In this document: piece by piece, positions 2,208 to 48,311 of the stretch
Position numbering within the stretch: the first letter of the stretch is position 1
Layout of the letters: each line of letters starts with the position of its first letter
DNA from: Mitsuokella multacida DSM 20544
GTDB lineage: Bacteria; Bacillota; Negativicutes; Selenomonadales; Selenomonadaceae
Direction of reading: 5' to 3'
Assembly: GCF_000155955.1 (NCBI RefSeq)
Contig: NZ_GG697142.2
Coordinates: forward strand, 609,325-673,324
Length of the DNA stretch: 64,000 nucleotides
Translations under genes and position numbers: made by a program
Notes under the pieces: generated by a model
The model's input: the letters and a program-made list of their open reading frames with translations, nothing else
What the model was told of the DNA's origin: nothing
The model's database searches: none

Positions 2208-3344
2208 ATGAGGGAATCTGTTACTAGAGGAATTCGTATCGCTAAATTCACGCTGGATGGACATTTTAATTATGGCAATGTCTTGCAAAGTTATGCACTT
2301 CAACAGGCTCTTTTACGCTATGTAGACTATGTCGATACAATATGGACAAAGCCTGAGACATTTTTGCCTGAAATGTGGTGGAAATGGACTTGGAAAATGT
2401 ACATTAAGTGGCTGATTGATTGGCGAAATTTCCGCACTGAGATAACGAATGGTCATATCGGTCGTGAGATGGCAAGACAGACAAAAATACGCGACTTCTC
2501 GGATCGATATATCTCATATCATCGTGTTGCTCTTGCTGAATTATCCCATCAGATAAAGCAATATGATTATTGTGTTGTCGGAAGTGATCAGGTGTGGAAT
2601 CCACATTTCGGCAATTATCATCAGTTCTTCCTGGGCTTCGCACCGGAAGAAAAGCGTTTATCCTATGCGGCAAGTATTTCAACTACAGAGATTCCTGCTG
2701 AAGAGCATGATTTTTTTGTGCAGGGGCTCAAGAGTATGAAGACGCTGTCGGTGCGAGAGCAGGCAGGAGCGGATTTGATTGAGCAGCTGACCGGGCGAAA
2801 AGCAGAAGTCCATGTGGATCCGACGCTCTTGCTCACTGCCGATGAATGGCGCAGCGTTAGCAGGCGGCCGACTTGGTATCATGGGGGAGAGTACCTGCTG
2901 ACGTACTTCCTCGGCAGGCGTCCGGCTCAGATCGATGCGATTGCCAAGGAGCTGGGCCTCGAGGTGGTCAATCTACTGGATGAGGATATCTATGAGCACT
3001 ATGTGACGGGCGTCGATGAATTCCTCTGGGCAATCGACCACGCCAGCCTCGTCTATACGGATTCCTTCCATGGCAGTGTATTCTCCATCCTGTTTCAAAC
3101 GCCGTTTGTGGTCTGTGATCGCTTAGGAGCAGGTAAAGATGATGCCCTTGAGAAGATGGGCTCGCGCCTCGATACCCTGCTTGGCTATTTCGGCTTCCAA
3201 GAGCGTCGCACGAATGAGTTGAAGGGCTATCGCATTGAGAATCCCCTGCAGCCGCCGGCTTGGGAACGGTGTGAGCCGGTACTAGTGAGGGAACGGGCTC
3301 GCTCGGATGAGTATCTGCGCCGTGTGCTCGGTTTGAATGGTTGA
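2208..3344 (+). CDS. Polysaccharide pyruvyl transferase family protein
   Basis: 378 residues. Motifs of the CsaB/WcaK-type pyruvyl transferase family are visible: GHFNYGNVLQSYALQQAL near residue 20, CVVGSDQVWNP near 125, SVREQ..ADLI and VDPTLLL near 180-205, and YTDSFHGSVFSI near 283. These enzymes usually add a ketal-linked pyruvate from phosphoenolpyruvate to a sugar of a surface polymer. The ATG follows GAGGGAGAATGTAA, a good ribosome site. The first ~430 bases are AT-rich and the remainder GC-rich, the same mosaic pattern as in the flippase before it. The gene is followed at 28 bp by another flippase gene. Confidence 0.85.
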   Translation: MRESVTRGIRIAKFTLDGHFNYGNVLQSYALQQALLRYVDYVDTIWTKPETFLPEMWWKWTWKMYIKWLIDWRNFRTEITNGHIGREMARQTKIRDFSDRYISYHRVALAELSHQIKQYDYCVVGSDQVWNPHFGNYHQFFLGFAPEEKRLSYAASISTTEIPAEEHDFFVQGLKSMKTLSVREQAGADLIEQLTGRKAEVHVDPTLLLTADEWRSVSRRPTWYHGGEYLLTYFLGRRPAQIDAIAKELGLEVVNLLDEDIYEHYVTGVDEFLWAIDHASLVYTDSFHGSVFSILFQTPFVVCDRLGAGKDDALEKMGSRLDTLLGYFGFQERRTNELKGYRIENPLQPPAWERCEPVLVRERARSDEYLRRVLGLNG

Positions 3345-21354: not shown

Positions 21355-21691
21355 GGGGATGTAAAGGTTTCGACGGGGTATTGAAGCCACGAAGTTCGCA
21401 GGCCAATGGTCATGAACGCCTGAAGCTTGACCGCTAAATTCAACTGACGAAGCTGAATACGCTTACGCTGCCTGAGCCTAGCTCAGATAGCCCCTCTGGA
21501 AGTACGAACCGTCAGCCAACCCGGAGGTTTTAAATAAAGACGGCAGTTTCCTGTTTTGTAAAAACAGGTGGTGGAGAACTCTGAATCCCAGAGTTCCGCT
21601 CCTATGATGCCCGCATTCTCGGGCTATTGCGATAATGCTTTGTGATGTGGATGTATTTCGGACAGGAGTTCGATTCTCCTCATCTCCACCA
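21355..21691 (+). ncRNA. ssrA: tmRNA
   Basis: The 5' end GGGGATG (21355-21361) pairs with CATCTCC before the terminal ACCA (21681-21691) as an alanyl-tRNA-like acceptor stem. GTAAAGGTTTCGACGGG near the start and GGAGTTCGATTCTCC (the T arm) near the end are standard. The internal tag frame reads NSTDEAEYAYAA and stops with TGA at 21473-21475; the codon before AAT is CTA, so the resume codon is unclear, as alanine (GCN) is usual. tmRNA rescues stalled ribosomes and tags the product for proteolysis together with SmpB. Confidence 0.93.
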
Positions 21692-24396: not shown

Positions 24397-24675
24397 GGCC
24401 CGAGGGGCTGGCTGAACAACGCTGCGCAATGGAGGGCCGGGGAGAGACTGGCAACGCTTCGCCACGGCGCGCTGCTAAACGTATTTTTTGTCTTTTATGG
24501 TATCCTTAGCAAAGAGCTAAACGCGCTGCGCTTGGACGACGCTCTTTGTTAAGGATTCTAGTGGACAAAAAATCCGTTCTTCACGCAGCGCGCCGAAGGC
24601 TACGCTTTTGCCAGCCTCTCCCCTGACACGTAGTCCCGTCGATGTTCCGCTTATGCTCATCCAGCCCCTCGGGCC
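24397..24675. repeat. Long fold-back (element part A, copy 1)
   Basis: Nested inverted segments make one ~280-nt hairpin: GGCCCGAGGGGCTGG (24397-24411) with 24661-24675 (15 bp, perfect); GGGGAGAGACTGGCA (24439-24453) with 24609-24623 (one mismatch); CGGCGCGCTGC (24465-24475) with 24585-24595; ATTTTTTGTC (24483-24492) with 24564-24573; and a 16-bp stem 24501-24516 with 24542-24557. The apical loop is 24518-24540. No coding frame. Confidence 0.75.
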
Positions 24676-24685
24676 AAGGTACGGT

Positions 24686-24743
24686 TGCAAAAAGCCTCGA
24701 TCGTTCGTCGTATCATCGATGAAAGGTCGAGGCTCTTTTTGCA
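24686..24743. repeat. Hairpin (element part B, copy 1), terminator-like
   Basis: TGCAAAAAGCCTCGA (from 24686) pairs with TCGAGGCTCTTTTTGCA (to 24743). With A-rich and T-rich flanks it could stop transcription on both strands, for example after cbiO. Copy 2 is at 26597-26654. Confidence 0.65.
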
Positions 24744-24785
24744 TATCGCAGCGAGGAGAGGGCTCCGCTGCAAGACGTATCTTTA

Positions 24786-24967
24786 GGAGGTGGGCTGTAT
24801 TTCGCCTGCAGGAGCGCAGCGATAGCCCGTAGGGCTGAGTCCTGACAATCTCTGGCATAGAGATGCGATGTGAGAACGCCGCGGCAGGCGGCGAAGTGAC
24901 ATCAAAGGGATATCCTGCCATAGGGCTCATTTAGCGGAGCGACGAAGCCGAAATATAGCCCACCTCC
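24786..24967 (+). ncRNA. Candidate structured RNA (element part C, copy 1)
   Basis: Closed by a 19-bp stem: GGAGGTGGGCTGTATTTCG (24786-24804) with 24949-24967, including one G-U pair. Inside: hairpin AGCCC-GTA-GGGCT (24824-24836); stem GAGTCCT (24837-24843) with AGGGCTC (24922-24928); hairpin ATCTCT..AGAGAT (24849-24865); a two-part stem GATGT/ACATC plus CGCCGC/GCGGCG (24867-24903); and GGATATCC. Compared with copy 2 the outer stem differs by a paired insertion (T 24791 opposite A 24962). I do not recognise the family. Its end lies about 30 bp before the MATE promoter. Strand chosen by G-U pairs only. Confidence 0.5.
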
Positions 24968-24995
24968 GTCCGTACATATATTTCTCGAATCCCCC

Positions 24996-25026
24996 TTGAC
25001 TCTATCATAGTTGTAGTGTTTACTAT
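24996..25026 (+). promoter_or_regulatory. MerR-type promoter of the MATE gene
   Basis: TTGACT (24996-25001) and TACTAT (25021-25026) are separated by 19 bp, the over-long spacer typical of promoters activated by MerR-family regulators. An imperfect dyad (ACTCTA/TAGTGT) fills the spacer. It suggests induction of the pump by a drug or metal through an unlinked MerR protein. The leader is only about 14 nt. Confidence 0.6.
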
Positions 25027-25046
25027 GGTGTCAAGGAGGGATCTTT

Positions 25047-26387
25047 TTGAGTAAGAATCTGACAACGGGCAGTGTGGCGAGGAATATCTTGTATTTCTCG
25101 CTGCCGTTTTTTCTTTCGTATTTCCTGCAGACGCTCTACGGCATGGCGGACCTCTTTATCATCGGGCAGTTTGAGGGGGCGGCTAGCATCACGGCGGTAT
25201 CGATTGGCAGTCAGGTCATGCACATGCTGACGGTCATGATCGTGGGGCTGGCGATGGGGACGACGGTCACGATTGCGCAGGCGGTCGGCGCGGAGGACGG
25301 GCTGCGGGTCCGGAAGGCCATCGGCACGACGGCGGTGCTGTTCTTTGCGGTCTCTATCGTGCTGGCTGTGGTGCTGATCGCGCTTCGCGGCTCGATCACG
25401 GGTGTCATGGAGACGCCTTTGGAGGCGGCATCTGGGACGCAGGCGTATCTTTTGATCTGCTTCCTCGGCATTCCGCTCATCACGGCTTACAATATCATCG
25501 CCTCGATTTTCCGCGGGCTCGGCGATGCGAAGAGCCCGATGTACTTTGTCGCGGTGGCCTGTCTCTGCAACATCGCGCTCGACTATCTCTTCATGGGGGC
25601 TTTTGCGATGGGCCCGGCTGGCGCGGCCTGGGGCACGGTCATCTCGCAGGCCATCAGTGTCGTGCTCACGCTCGCCTATGTGAAGAGCGGCAAGGCGGGC
25701 ATTGCGCTTTCGCGGCAGGATTTCCGTCCGGATCTTGCGGTGCTGCGCCGCATCCTGCGCATCGGCGTGCCAATCTCGCTGCAGGACGGCTTCATCCAGG
25801 TGGCATTCCTCGTCATCACGGTCATTGCGAACATGCGCGGGCTGACGGACGCGGCGGCGGTCGGCATCGTCGAGAAGGTCATCAGCTTCATCTTCCTCGT
25901 GCCATCGTCGATGCTCTCGACGGTCTCAGCGCTCGGCGCGCAGAACATCGGTGCGGGCAAGGTCGGCCGCGCGCAGCAGACGCTTCGCTATGCGTTGGCG
26001 ATGGCGGTGAGCTTCGGCATCGTGGTCTCCATCGTCACGCAGTACACGGCGGATGGCATTGTCGGGCTGTTCACGTATGACGCGGCCGTCATCGTGGCGG
26101 GCGGCGCGTACCTGCAGGGCTACATCTTTGACTGCATCTTCGCGGGCATCCACTTCTGTTTCAGTGGCTATTTCTGCGCCTGCGGCCGCTCAGAAATCTC
26201 GTTCTTGCACAATGTCGTCTCCATCGTGACGGCGCGCATCCCGCTCGTCTACCTGACGTCCATCTGGTACCCGGACACGCTGTTCCCGATGGGGCTTGCT
26301 ACAGCGACGGGCTCCATCGTCTCGGTCATCATTTGCATCGGGGCTTTTGCCCTTCTGCGAGCGCGCGGCAGGGCAGCGTTCTGCTAA
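25047..26387 (+). CDS. MATE family multidrug efflux transporter
   Basis: 446 residues, TTG start at 25047 with GGAGGG seven bases before it. Twelve hydrophobic helices; the start SVARNILYFSLPFFLSYFLQTLYGMADLFIIGQFEG and the internal GLGDAKSPMYF and GAQNIGAGK motifs fit the NorM/MepA/DinF superfamily (MepA/DinF-like branch). It expels cationic drugs using Na+ or H+. The gene stands alone between two copies of the structured element and is preceded by a MerR-type promoter. Confidence 0.9.
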   Translation: MSKNLTTGSVARNILYFSLPFFLSYFLQTLYGMADLFIIGQFEGAASITAVSIGSQVMHMLTVMIVGLAMGTTVTIAQAVGAEDGLRVRKAIGTTAVLFFAVSIVLAVVLIALRGSITGVMETPLEAASGTQAYLLICFLGIPLITAYNIIASIFRGLGDAKSPMYFVAVACLCNIALDYLFMGAFAMGPAGAAWGTVISQAISVVLTLAYVKSGKAGIALSRQDFRPDLAVLRRILRIGVPISLQDGFIQVAFLVITVIANMRGLTDAAAVGIVEKVISFIFLVPSSMLSTVSALGAQNIGAGKVGRAQQTLRYALAMAVSFGIVVSIVTQYTADGIVGLFTYDAAVIVAGGAYLQGYIFDCIFAGIHFCFSGYFCACGRSEISFLHNVVSIVTARIPLVYLTSIWYPDTLFPMGLATATGSIVSVIICIGAFALLRARGRAAFC

Positions 26388-26433
26388 GCGAGGTCGGGGA
26401 TAGCTGGTCAACGCTACGCGATGGCAGTCTGCT

Positions 26434-26535
26434 GAAAGGATTTTTTGCCTTTTAATGCATCCTTACAAAACGCTAAACGCGCTTCGCTTGGACGACGCTT
26501 TTTTGTAAGGGGCTTGGTAGGCAAAAAATCCTTTC
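26434..26535. repeat. Hairpin (element part A, copy 2)
   Basis: GAAAGGATTTTTTGCC (26434-26449) pairs perfectly over 16 bp with 26520-26535; an inner stem CCTTACAAAA (26461-26470) pairs with TTTTGTAAGG (26501-26510). The 23-nt apical segment (26474-26496) differs from copy 1 (24518-24540) at one base only, while the stems differ at many positions yet still pair. Confidence 0.75.
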
Positions 26536-26596
26536 TTAACGCAGAACATCAAATGCTCCGCTTATGCTCATCCAGCCCCTCGGGCCAAGATGCAGT

Positions 26597-26654
26597 TGCA
26601 AAAAGCCTCGACCGTTTGTTGTATCATCGATGAACGGTCGAGGCTTTTATTTGC
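26597..26654. repeat. Hairpin (element part B, copy 2), terminator-like
   Basis: TGCAAAAAGCCTCGACCGTT (26597-26616) pairs with AACGGTCGAGGC (26633-26644) and TTTTATTTGCA beyond. The stem is longer than in copy 1 because both sides of the C-G and T-A pairs near the loop are restored. Confidence 0.7.
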
Positions 26655-26698
26655 AGGAACGTAGCGGGAGGGAGGCTCCGTCGTAGGGGGTATCTTCA

Positions 26699-26878
26699 GG
26701 AGGGGGCTGTATTTCGCCTGCAGGAGCGCAGCGATAGCCCGCAGGGCTGAGCCCTGACACTTTTTAGCATAGAAATGCGATGTGAGAACGCCGCGGCAGG
26801 CGGCGAGGTGACATCGAAGGGATATCCTATCATAGGGCTCATTTAGCGGAGCGACGAAGCCGAAATATAGCCCCCTCC
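26699..26878 (+). ncRNA. Candidate structured RNA (element part C, copy 2)
   Basis: Same architecture as 24786-24967: outer stem GGAGGGGGCTGTATTTCG (26699-26716) with 26861-26878, one base pair shorter on both sides; hairpin AGCCC-GCA-GGGCT; GAGCCCT now a full Watson-Crick match to AGGGCTC; and the conserved GATGT..CGCCGC/GCGGCG..ACATC arm. The short hairpin that is ATCTCT/AGAGAT in copy 1 is weaker here. Lies directly after the 3' end of a minus-strand gene. Confidence 0.5.
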
Positions 26879-26899
26879 GTCCGTATGCCCGCGCACTTT

Positions 26900-48196: not shown

Positions 48197-48223
48197 AAGA
48201 AAGAACTGAATAAAAACGATTCA

Positions 48224-48299
48224 CTAGGGGAGCCGTTGGCTGAGAGGAGTATTCCGACCCTTGGAACCTGTTGGGTTAAGACCTGCGTAGGGAAGTGAC
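48224..48299 (+). promoter_or_regulatory. TPP riboswitch (THI element)
   Basis: GGGGAGCCG...GGCTGAGAGG (P2/J3 with the CUGAGA core), GACCCTTGGAACCTG and GGGTTAAGACCTGCGTAGGG match the thiamine pyrophosphate aptamer. A terminator (48312-48340) follows at once, so thiC is switched off by transcription termination when TPP is plentiful. Confidence 0.95.
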
Positions 48300-48311
48300 A
48301 GAGCATATCTT

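Follow-up and report, generated by a model that had tools for sequence, protein, structure and literature searches.

Interchangeable structured modules in Mitsuokella and other Selenomonadaceae probably form the ends of outward-facing, non-autonomous mobile units

We analyzed a 64,000-nucleotide stretch of the Mitsuokella multacida DSM 20544 genome (the window: contig NZ_GG697142.2, positions 609,325 to 673,324) that carries two related non-coding units, one on each side of a MATE transporter gene (Table 1). Each unit contains a long fold-back (A), a terminator-like hairpin (B), and a multi-stem domain (C). An earlier note, made from the sequence alone, had described this A-B-C order, and our analysis of repeats in the window located it twice. 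The two copies are 94% identical over 170 nt in C, 90% over 99 nt in the B stretch, and 77% over 102 nt in the A stretch. The differences that the note had listed could be read directly from the sequence: the two 23-nt apical loops (24518-24540 and 26474-26496) are identical but for one base, a T inserted in the outer stem of C at 24791 is paired with an inserted A at 24962, and the C stem GAGTCCT/AGGGCTC becomes the full match GAGCCCT/AGGGCTC in the other copy. A consensus terminator scan did not list B copy 1; the B loop is longer than the scan allows. The note had recognized no family here, and Rfam gave no match to either unit at the gathering level, the only matches in the window being a transfer-messenger RNA (tmRNA) and a thiamine pyrophosphate (TPP) riboswitch elsewhere. 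At E-values up to 5, only four weak matches, to eukaryotic families, fell in the unit region.

Table 1. Coordinates of the two units, their parts, and the intervening gene, numbered from the first letter of the window.
Feature	Position	Strand	Evidence or remark
Unit 1, A-B-C order	24397-24974		left of MATE gene
A module, copy 1	24440..24622	-	R3 match G000:C5:633764-633946 minus, 185.4 bits; pair counts
A module, copy 1, outer arms	reach 24397-24418 and 24654-24675		
B, copy 1, terminator-like hairpin	24687..24742	.	centre of unit 1; read from sequence; repeat D2
C module, copy 1 (C1)	24783..24968	+	R1, 189.1 bits; z -5.68 as RNA, -5.07 as DNA
C1 outer stem P1	5' arm 24785..24804, 3' arm 24949-24968	+	alignment A1 columns 3-22 with 175-194
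C1 stem P2	5' arm 24836..24843, 3' arm 24922-24929	+	alignment A1 columns 56-63 with 146-153
C1 variable loop strand V1	24845..24864	+	no covariation with V2; drift like upstream flank
C1 conserved hairpin P3	24878..24892	+	alignment A1 columns 100-114
C1 variable loop strand V2	24895..24920	+	no covariation with V1; drift like upstream flank
MATE transporter gene	25047..26387	+	PF01554, 172.8 bits; between both units, context only
Unit 2, A-B-C order	about 26392-26886		right of MATE gene
A module, copy 2	26397..26578	-	R3 match G000:C5:635721-635902 minus, 172.3 bits
B, copy 2, hairpin	26598..26654	.	centre of unit 2; sequence; repeat D2; 16-bp perfect inner arms (I7)
C module, copy 2	26695..26880	+	R1, 188.5 bits

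The C module recurs in the host genome with its pairing preserved. A DNA search with C returned 38 matches. A covariance model built from 26 copies (alignment A1, 26 of 30 loci, leaving out L013, L016, L021, and L030) returned 42, of which 38 are full copies scoring 126-189 bits, another is a remnant at 74 bits, and the last three fall below 26 bits. In a MAFFT alignment of the 26 copies, 30 of 45 pairs change on both sides yet stay paired. The fraction of paired cells is 96.5%, compared with 82.7% in shuffles, and pairing falls to 38-45% when the partner is slid by 1-3 columns. None of 500 shuffles reached the observed value on any of five measures. An alignment of 63 copies fitted to the model (38 from the host, 23 from Mitsuokella jalaludinii DSM 13811, and 2 from genome G002) gave 32 of 45 pairs and 96.0% of cells. 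The top 21 mutual-information pairs all fall within the structure, and 0 of 200 shuffles fold as well as C1, whose z-scores are given in Table 1.

Conserved and variable parts alternate along the C fold. The outer stem P1 is about 20 bp long and differs in sequence in most copies. It leads to a conserved asymmetric inner loop, one side of which carries CCTGCAGGAGCGnAGCGA together with a GCCCnnnGGGC hairpin, and the opposite side CATTTAGCGGAGCGACGAAGCC. Stem P2, which also varies among copies, closes a large loop in which the variable strands V1 and V2 surround the conserved hairpin P3, GATGTCAGAACGCCGCGGCAGGCGGCGAA. The mutual-information analysis of C found no covariation between V1 and V2. 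The modules are about 185 nt long, and many copies have a 5' foot resembling GTAACT or GTACCT (by eye). Read on the plus strand, C holds 60 G-U and 21 A-C cells, a ratio that favors that strand.

The A module is a second structured family. BLAST gave 19 matches in the host genome, representing 17 separate places; the remainder were an antisense self-match and a 45-nt arm. Alignment A8 contains 15 of the 17, without L089 and L149:3437. On the minus strand, 35 of 53 pairs change two-sidedly and remain paired in these 15 copies, counted on a structure that RNAalifold derived from the same alignment. Paired cells make up 97.2%, compared with 80.1% in shuffles and 39-47% with the partner slid, and again none of 500 shuffles came up to the real alignment on any of five measures. 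The earlier note had proposed selection on structure, to be supported by many copies with significant covariation, and the pairing of both modules beyond shuffles, the fold of C1, and the further copies of C bear this out. For A, the minus strand of the window is the better supported one. On the plus strand the ratio of G-U to A-C cells in A is 13:31, indicating that the minus strand folds better. At two loci with paired A modules (L237, centre 2241-2464; L240, centre 2802-3029), the centres are longer and contain extra inverted repeats, possibly a third structured part.

Modules are arranged in outward-facing pairs. Thirty-nine of the 56 modules in the host genome have a neighbor within 500 bp, yielding 21 neighboring pairs. 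Sixteen of these point outward (6 C-C, 7 A-C, and 3 A-A), none points inward, and five are C-C tandems oriented the same way. The outward order was also found in 13 of 13 units in genome G177, in 7 of 7 close pairs in genome G017, and in 10 of 10 A-A pairs from genus g16 (Selenomonas, probably the Selenomonas ruminantium group); five further stretches among the 15 of the g16 set contained an A without a partner, and another A was likewise single. We read A and C as exchangeable halves of a single mobile unit, and the A-B-C arrangement in the window is one such unit, present twice. The single 0.5-kb element of three parts in the earlier note is not supported, and neither is one RNA; what is present is two modules that diverge, A on the minus and C on the plus strand, with the small hairpin B between them. 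It was right that the units flank a MATE gene; the association itself looks incidental, since copies at other loci adjoin other open reading frames.

Both families extend beyond Mitsuokella. Among 189 Selenomonadaceae genomes from 30 genera, C was found in 34 genomes (6 genera) and A in 60 genomes (11 genera). Filtering was strict in both searches, and no more than 13-14 candidates per genome were scored, so copy numbers are lower bounds. Outside the family, one of 23 same-class genomes (G046) gave a weak R1 match of 28.7 bits. Phages gave no module match, and the one pattern sought in viral contigs had no exact match. The Selenomonas ruminantium plasmid pSR1 carries two R2 matches, scoring 25.3 and 24.3 bits, which join up over the start of the record and jointly cover model positions 1-185.

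We compared C copies at loci shared with M. jalaludinii, as defined by flanking genes. Twelve of 16 named pairs were used; L122, L125, and two L131 copies were set aside, as their best matches suggest that they had been exchanged or inverted. P1, P2, P3, and the inner loop are 94-97% identical between the 12 orthologous copies. The corresponding values are 70% for the upstream 100 nt, 71% for V1, 68% for V2, and 81% for the downstream 100 nt, with 85% in the first 35 nt downstream, the expected place of a terminal repeat. With stems and inner loops at 94-97% and flank and V loops at about 70%, the modules look as though they have been kept in place.

Shared loci also differ in some respects. 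The number of tandem C copies varies, with three at L084:11117-11749 and one at L135:7652, and with one at L092:4530 and two at L128:2057 and 2246. Three C copies lie head-to-tail at L089:10949-11508. At L098:3697-3762, just the P1 stem (66 nt) is left in the host, and the C module of M. jalaludinii at this place (L124:1985-2170) is complete. In a comparison by eye of L093:4400-5150 with L131:1900-2650, the inner part of a unit appears inverted between the two Mitsuokella species, with remnant 3' module halves left outside.

The ends of the units carry repeats of their own. In Selenomonas, the terminal repeat AAATTRCAGTTT is common to A-A and C-C units. Units in g16 are bounded by AAATTGCAGTTT...AAACTGCAATTT, a terminal inverted repeat as in miniature inverted-repeat transposable elements (MITEs), and several A-A units of this genus end in AAACTGYAATTT, which L245 and L246 lack. 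Allowing one mismatch, the terminal 12-mer occurs 57-81 times per genome in four genomes, compared with 14-21 times for a reversed control; the 13-mer AAATTRCAGTTTG occurs 31, 23, 27, and 1 times, compared with 1, 1, 0, and 0. The terminal repeat is enriched over the reversed control in each of eight genomes, with a count in G195 of only 1 versus 0. In G177, a Selenomonas genome, an intrinsic terminator lies within 55 bp of an end in 10 of 13 units (11 of 26 ends, versus 2 of 76 control windows). We take the units to be mobile, or to have been so in the past.

We consider it probable (roughly 60%) that A and C, though different in structure, can replace each other as end modules in one family of MITE-like, non-autonomous mobile units of the Selenomonadaceae. 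Such a unit would consist of a terminal inverted repeat, a left-facing module, a short centre with hairpin B in some cases, a right-facing module, and a second terminal inverted repeat. Each module may act folded as a single strand, namely the one that has its 3' end at the outer border of the unit. A trans-acting factor, presumably a protein, could read the conserved inner loops, and the stems would then be scaffolds that need only to pair. Once terminal repeats had decayed, hosts may have retained many modules for a local role in forming transcript ends or in chromosome structure. A role of this kind has reportedly been proposed for repetitive extragenic palindrome (REP) elements and the bacterial interspersed mosaic elements (BIMEs). 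We regard as rather doubtful the stronger proposal that mobile ends are set by fold and not by sequence, such that two unrelated folds, each about 185 nt long, can stand in for each other at the edges of one unit, the machinery reads single-stranded structure, and hosts kept the modules for a structural or RNA role.

Several observations weigh against this explanation. In Mitsuokella, terminal repeats are difficult to make out: a perfect 12-bp pair, ACGCACATCGTA, is present in 1 of 18 host units, most of which have no inverted end match above 6-8, and CGATGTnAA-like ends follow C modules in just 13 of 39 cases in the host and 4 of 24 in M. jalaludinii. The 14 Anaerovibrio copies are mostly single, with no terminal repeat seen, and no target duplication was visible by eye at the 13 G177 units. 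No mobilizing enzyme was found by profile searches with PF01797 and IS1182 or in the gene content of long units. The strand contrast of C disappears when pair columns are counted (17 with any G-U and 16 with any A-C), and neither window unit contained a promoter-like site in a sigma-70 scan. Finally, the closest match of a copy is its positional orthologue in 8 of 16 comparisons for the V parts and 11 of 16 for P1. This low rate, together with the exchanged and inverted units, suggests that gene conversion contributes, and conservation in place could partly reflect it.

The modules might alternatively be expressed host RNAs, regulatory or located at 3' ends, that were spread by past transposition; the fold would act as RNA, and transposition would no longer matter. 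We find this rather unlikely, though conservation at fixed loci exceeds that of the flanks, the V loops, and the first 35 nt downstream and leans toward a host function. The stable RNA fold of C1 and the preference for one strand also agree with it, as do transcribed structured repeats in Bacillus cereus, described in PMC3446304. Strand preference is compatible with both RNA and single-stranded DNA. The small number of G-U pairs and the outward order, by which a neighboring gene reading into a unit meets the near module antisense, lean toward DNA, and the absence of promoter-like sites from the units in the simple scan also counts against an RNA.

Paired changes could also arise without selection if template switching in long hairpins copies one arm to the other. 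At the 12 shared loci, changes that keep a pair are two-sided in 10 cases and one-sided in 12, with 7 changes creating mismatches, as such upkeep of palindromes might produce. Template switching may contribute to the stems. As a full explanation it is improbable, for it accounts neither for conserved inner loops and P3 next to drifting V1 and V2 nor for the same folds across genera.

We considered whether V1 and V2 act like the guide loops of IS110 bridge RNAs and match the site of insertion. Conserved stems close a loop in which the two variable strands lie opposite each other, and one unit contains an IS110 transposase. Tests with 60 copies, from which L138 and copies outside 180-200 nt were excluded, gave some high matches; for V1 in 300-nt flanks, 5 of 60 copies exceeded the 99th percentile on either side. 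The top four V2 matches to the upstream 60 nt came from tandem copies. Among 32 copies free of neighbors, 0-1 of 32 exceeded the 99th percentile in each of 16 tests, all made against flanks, indicating that tandem copies caused the earlier excess at least in part. Since V1 and V2 also drift like the flank, a guide function is very improbable.

Searches for a mobilizing enzyme revealed nested insertion sequences (ISs). In G177, three units of 2326 bp have a pair of C modules on either side of a gene for a 491-aa IS1182 transposase. One such unit, which resembled an autonomous copy, comprises about 607 bp of unit sequence around a nested IS1182-family IS of 1712 bp. The IS has a 15-bp terminal repeat, GAGGCCACTGAAAAA, and a target duplication of about 9 bp. 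Five copies out of six (L171, L190, L191, L192, and L193) are located at a C module, at the foot of P1, and the sixth lies elsewhere; C modules serve as landing sites for this IS in G177. Close homologues of the transposase are present in 5 of 189 genomes, and the IS1182 model matches 93 of 189 (27 above the cut-off), with none in the host genome. That the units arose by deletion from an IS1182-family IS with the modules as its ends is hardly credible: five of six gene copies do lie between outward C modules, but nested junctions refute parentage for the G177 IS, which has a terminal repeat and target duplication of its own and whose close homologues are confined to the 5 genomes.

Other candidates were also considered. 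The Y1 transposase PF01797 occurs in 27 of 41 genomes, including the host (5 matches), and RAYT/Y1 was rejected as the mobilizer on its absence (0 matches) from the module-bearing Anaerovibrio genome G022. In genome G192, a 2.1-kb unit holds an IS110-type transposase (PF02371, PF01548) between terminal repeats (L251:934-2130). Long terminal-repeat pairs in the eight genomes searched held nested IS1182 or IS110 copies. An apparent larger IS with A ends in G182 proved to be two separate A-A units around a gene.

We compared the units to known repeat families. REPINs and BIMEs are pairs of REPs linked to RAYT Y1 transposases. Like them, the units described here consist of intergenic palindromic modules of which an inverted pair is the mobile unit (the predominant outward order, with no inward pair, in the host), are non-autonomous, and act as IS landing sites. 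They differ in having multi-loop modules of about 185 nt instead of REPs of 20-40 nt, in stems rewritten from copy to copy with no GTAG tag, and in the lack of a Y1 transposase in G022. MITEs are similarly short, non-coding, dispersed, and flanked by terminal inverted repeats, whereas our units have two unrelated structured cores that face outward and keep pairing while sequence is rewritten, with no target duplication seen and no parent IS found in the eight genomes searched for the repeat. Our best reading places these elements among the structured mobile repeats of bacteria, as a variant of unusual complexity; nearest to them, and similar in how they work, are REPIN/BIME units and structured repeats of the bcr type. 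We do not file them as members of REPIN/BIME or MITEs because short tagged REPs are lacking, Y1 is absent from a module-bearing genome, and target duplication, which MITEs usually have, is unseen.

The bcr repeats of the Bacillus cereus group are also intergenic, some MITE-like and some with conserved secondary structure, according to PMC3446304 and PMC2267715. They belong to another branch of the phylum, and the passages compared do not mention paired outward modules or a shared terminal repeat. PMC5678879 describes stem-loop-replacing transposition by IS1272/IS1182, in which palindromic sites are targets. This resembles the IS1182-family IS at module feet, except that the IS here uses the modules as its target and is not their parent. 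Searches of an open-licence literature collection turned up no paper recognizable as a description of these elements.

The units are complex dispersed non-coding repeats that reach dozens of copies in a gut bacterium, occupy part of the Selenomonadaceae, and match no Rfam family. In those Selenomonadaceae of gut and rumen that carry them, the shape of the folds is kept more than their sequence. Interchangeable ends, conserved versus drifting loops, and conservation at fixed loci make two ideas testable, recognition of a folded single strand and later use by the host. Elsewhere in the window, the tmRNA gene (21355-21691) and the TPP riboswitch (48216-48310) identified by Rfam are ordinary.

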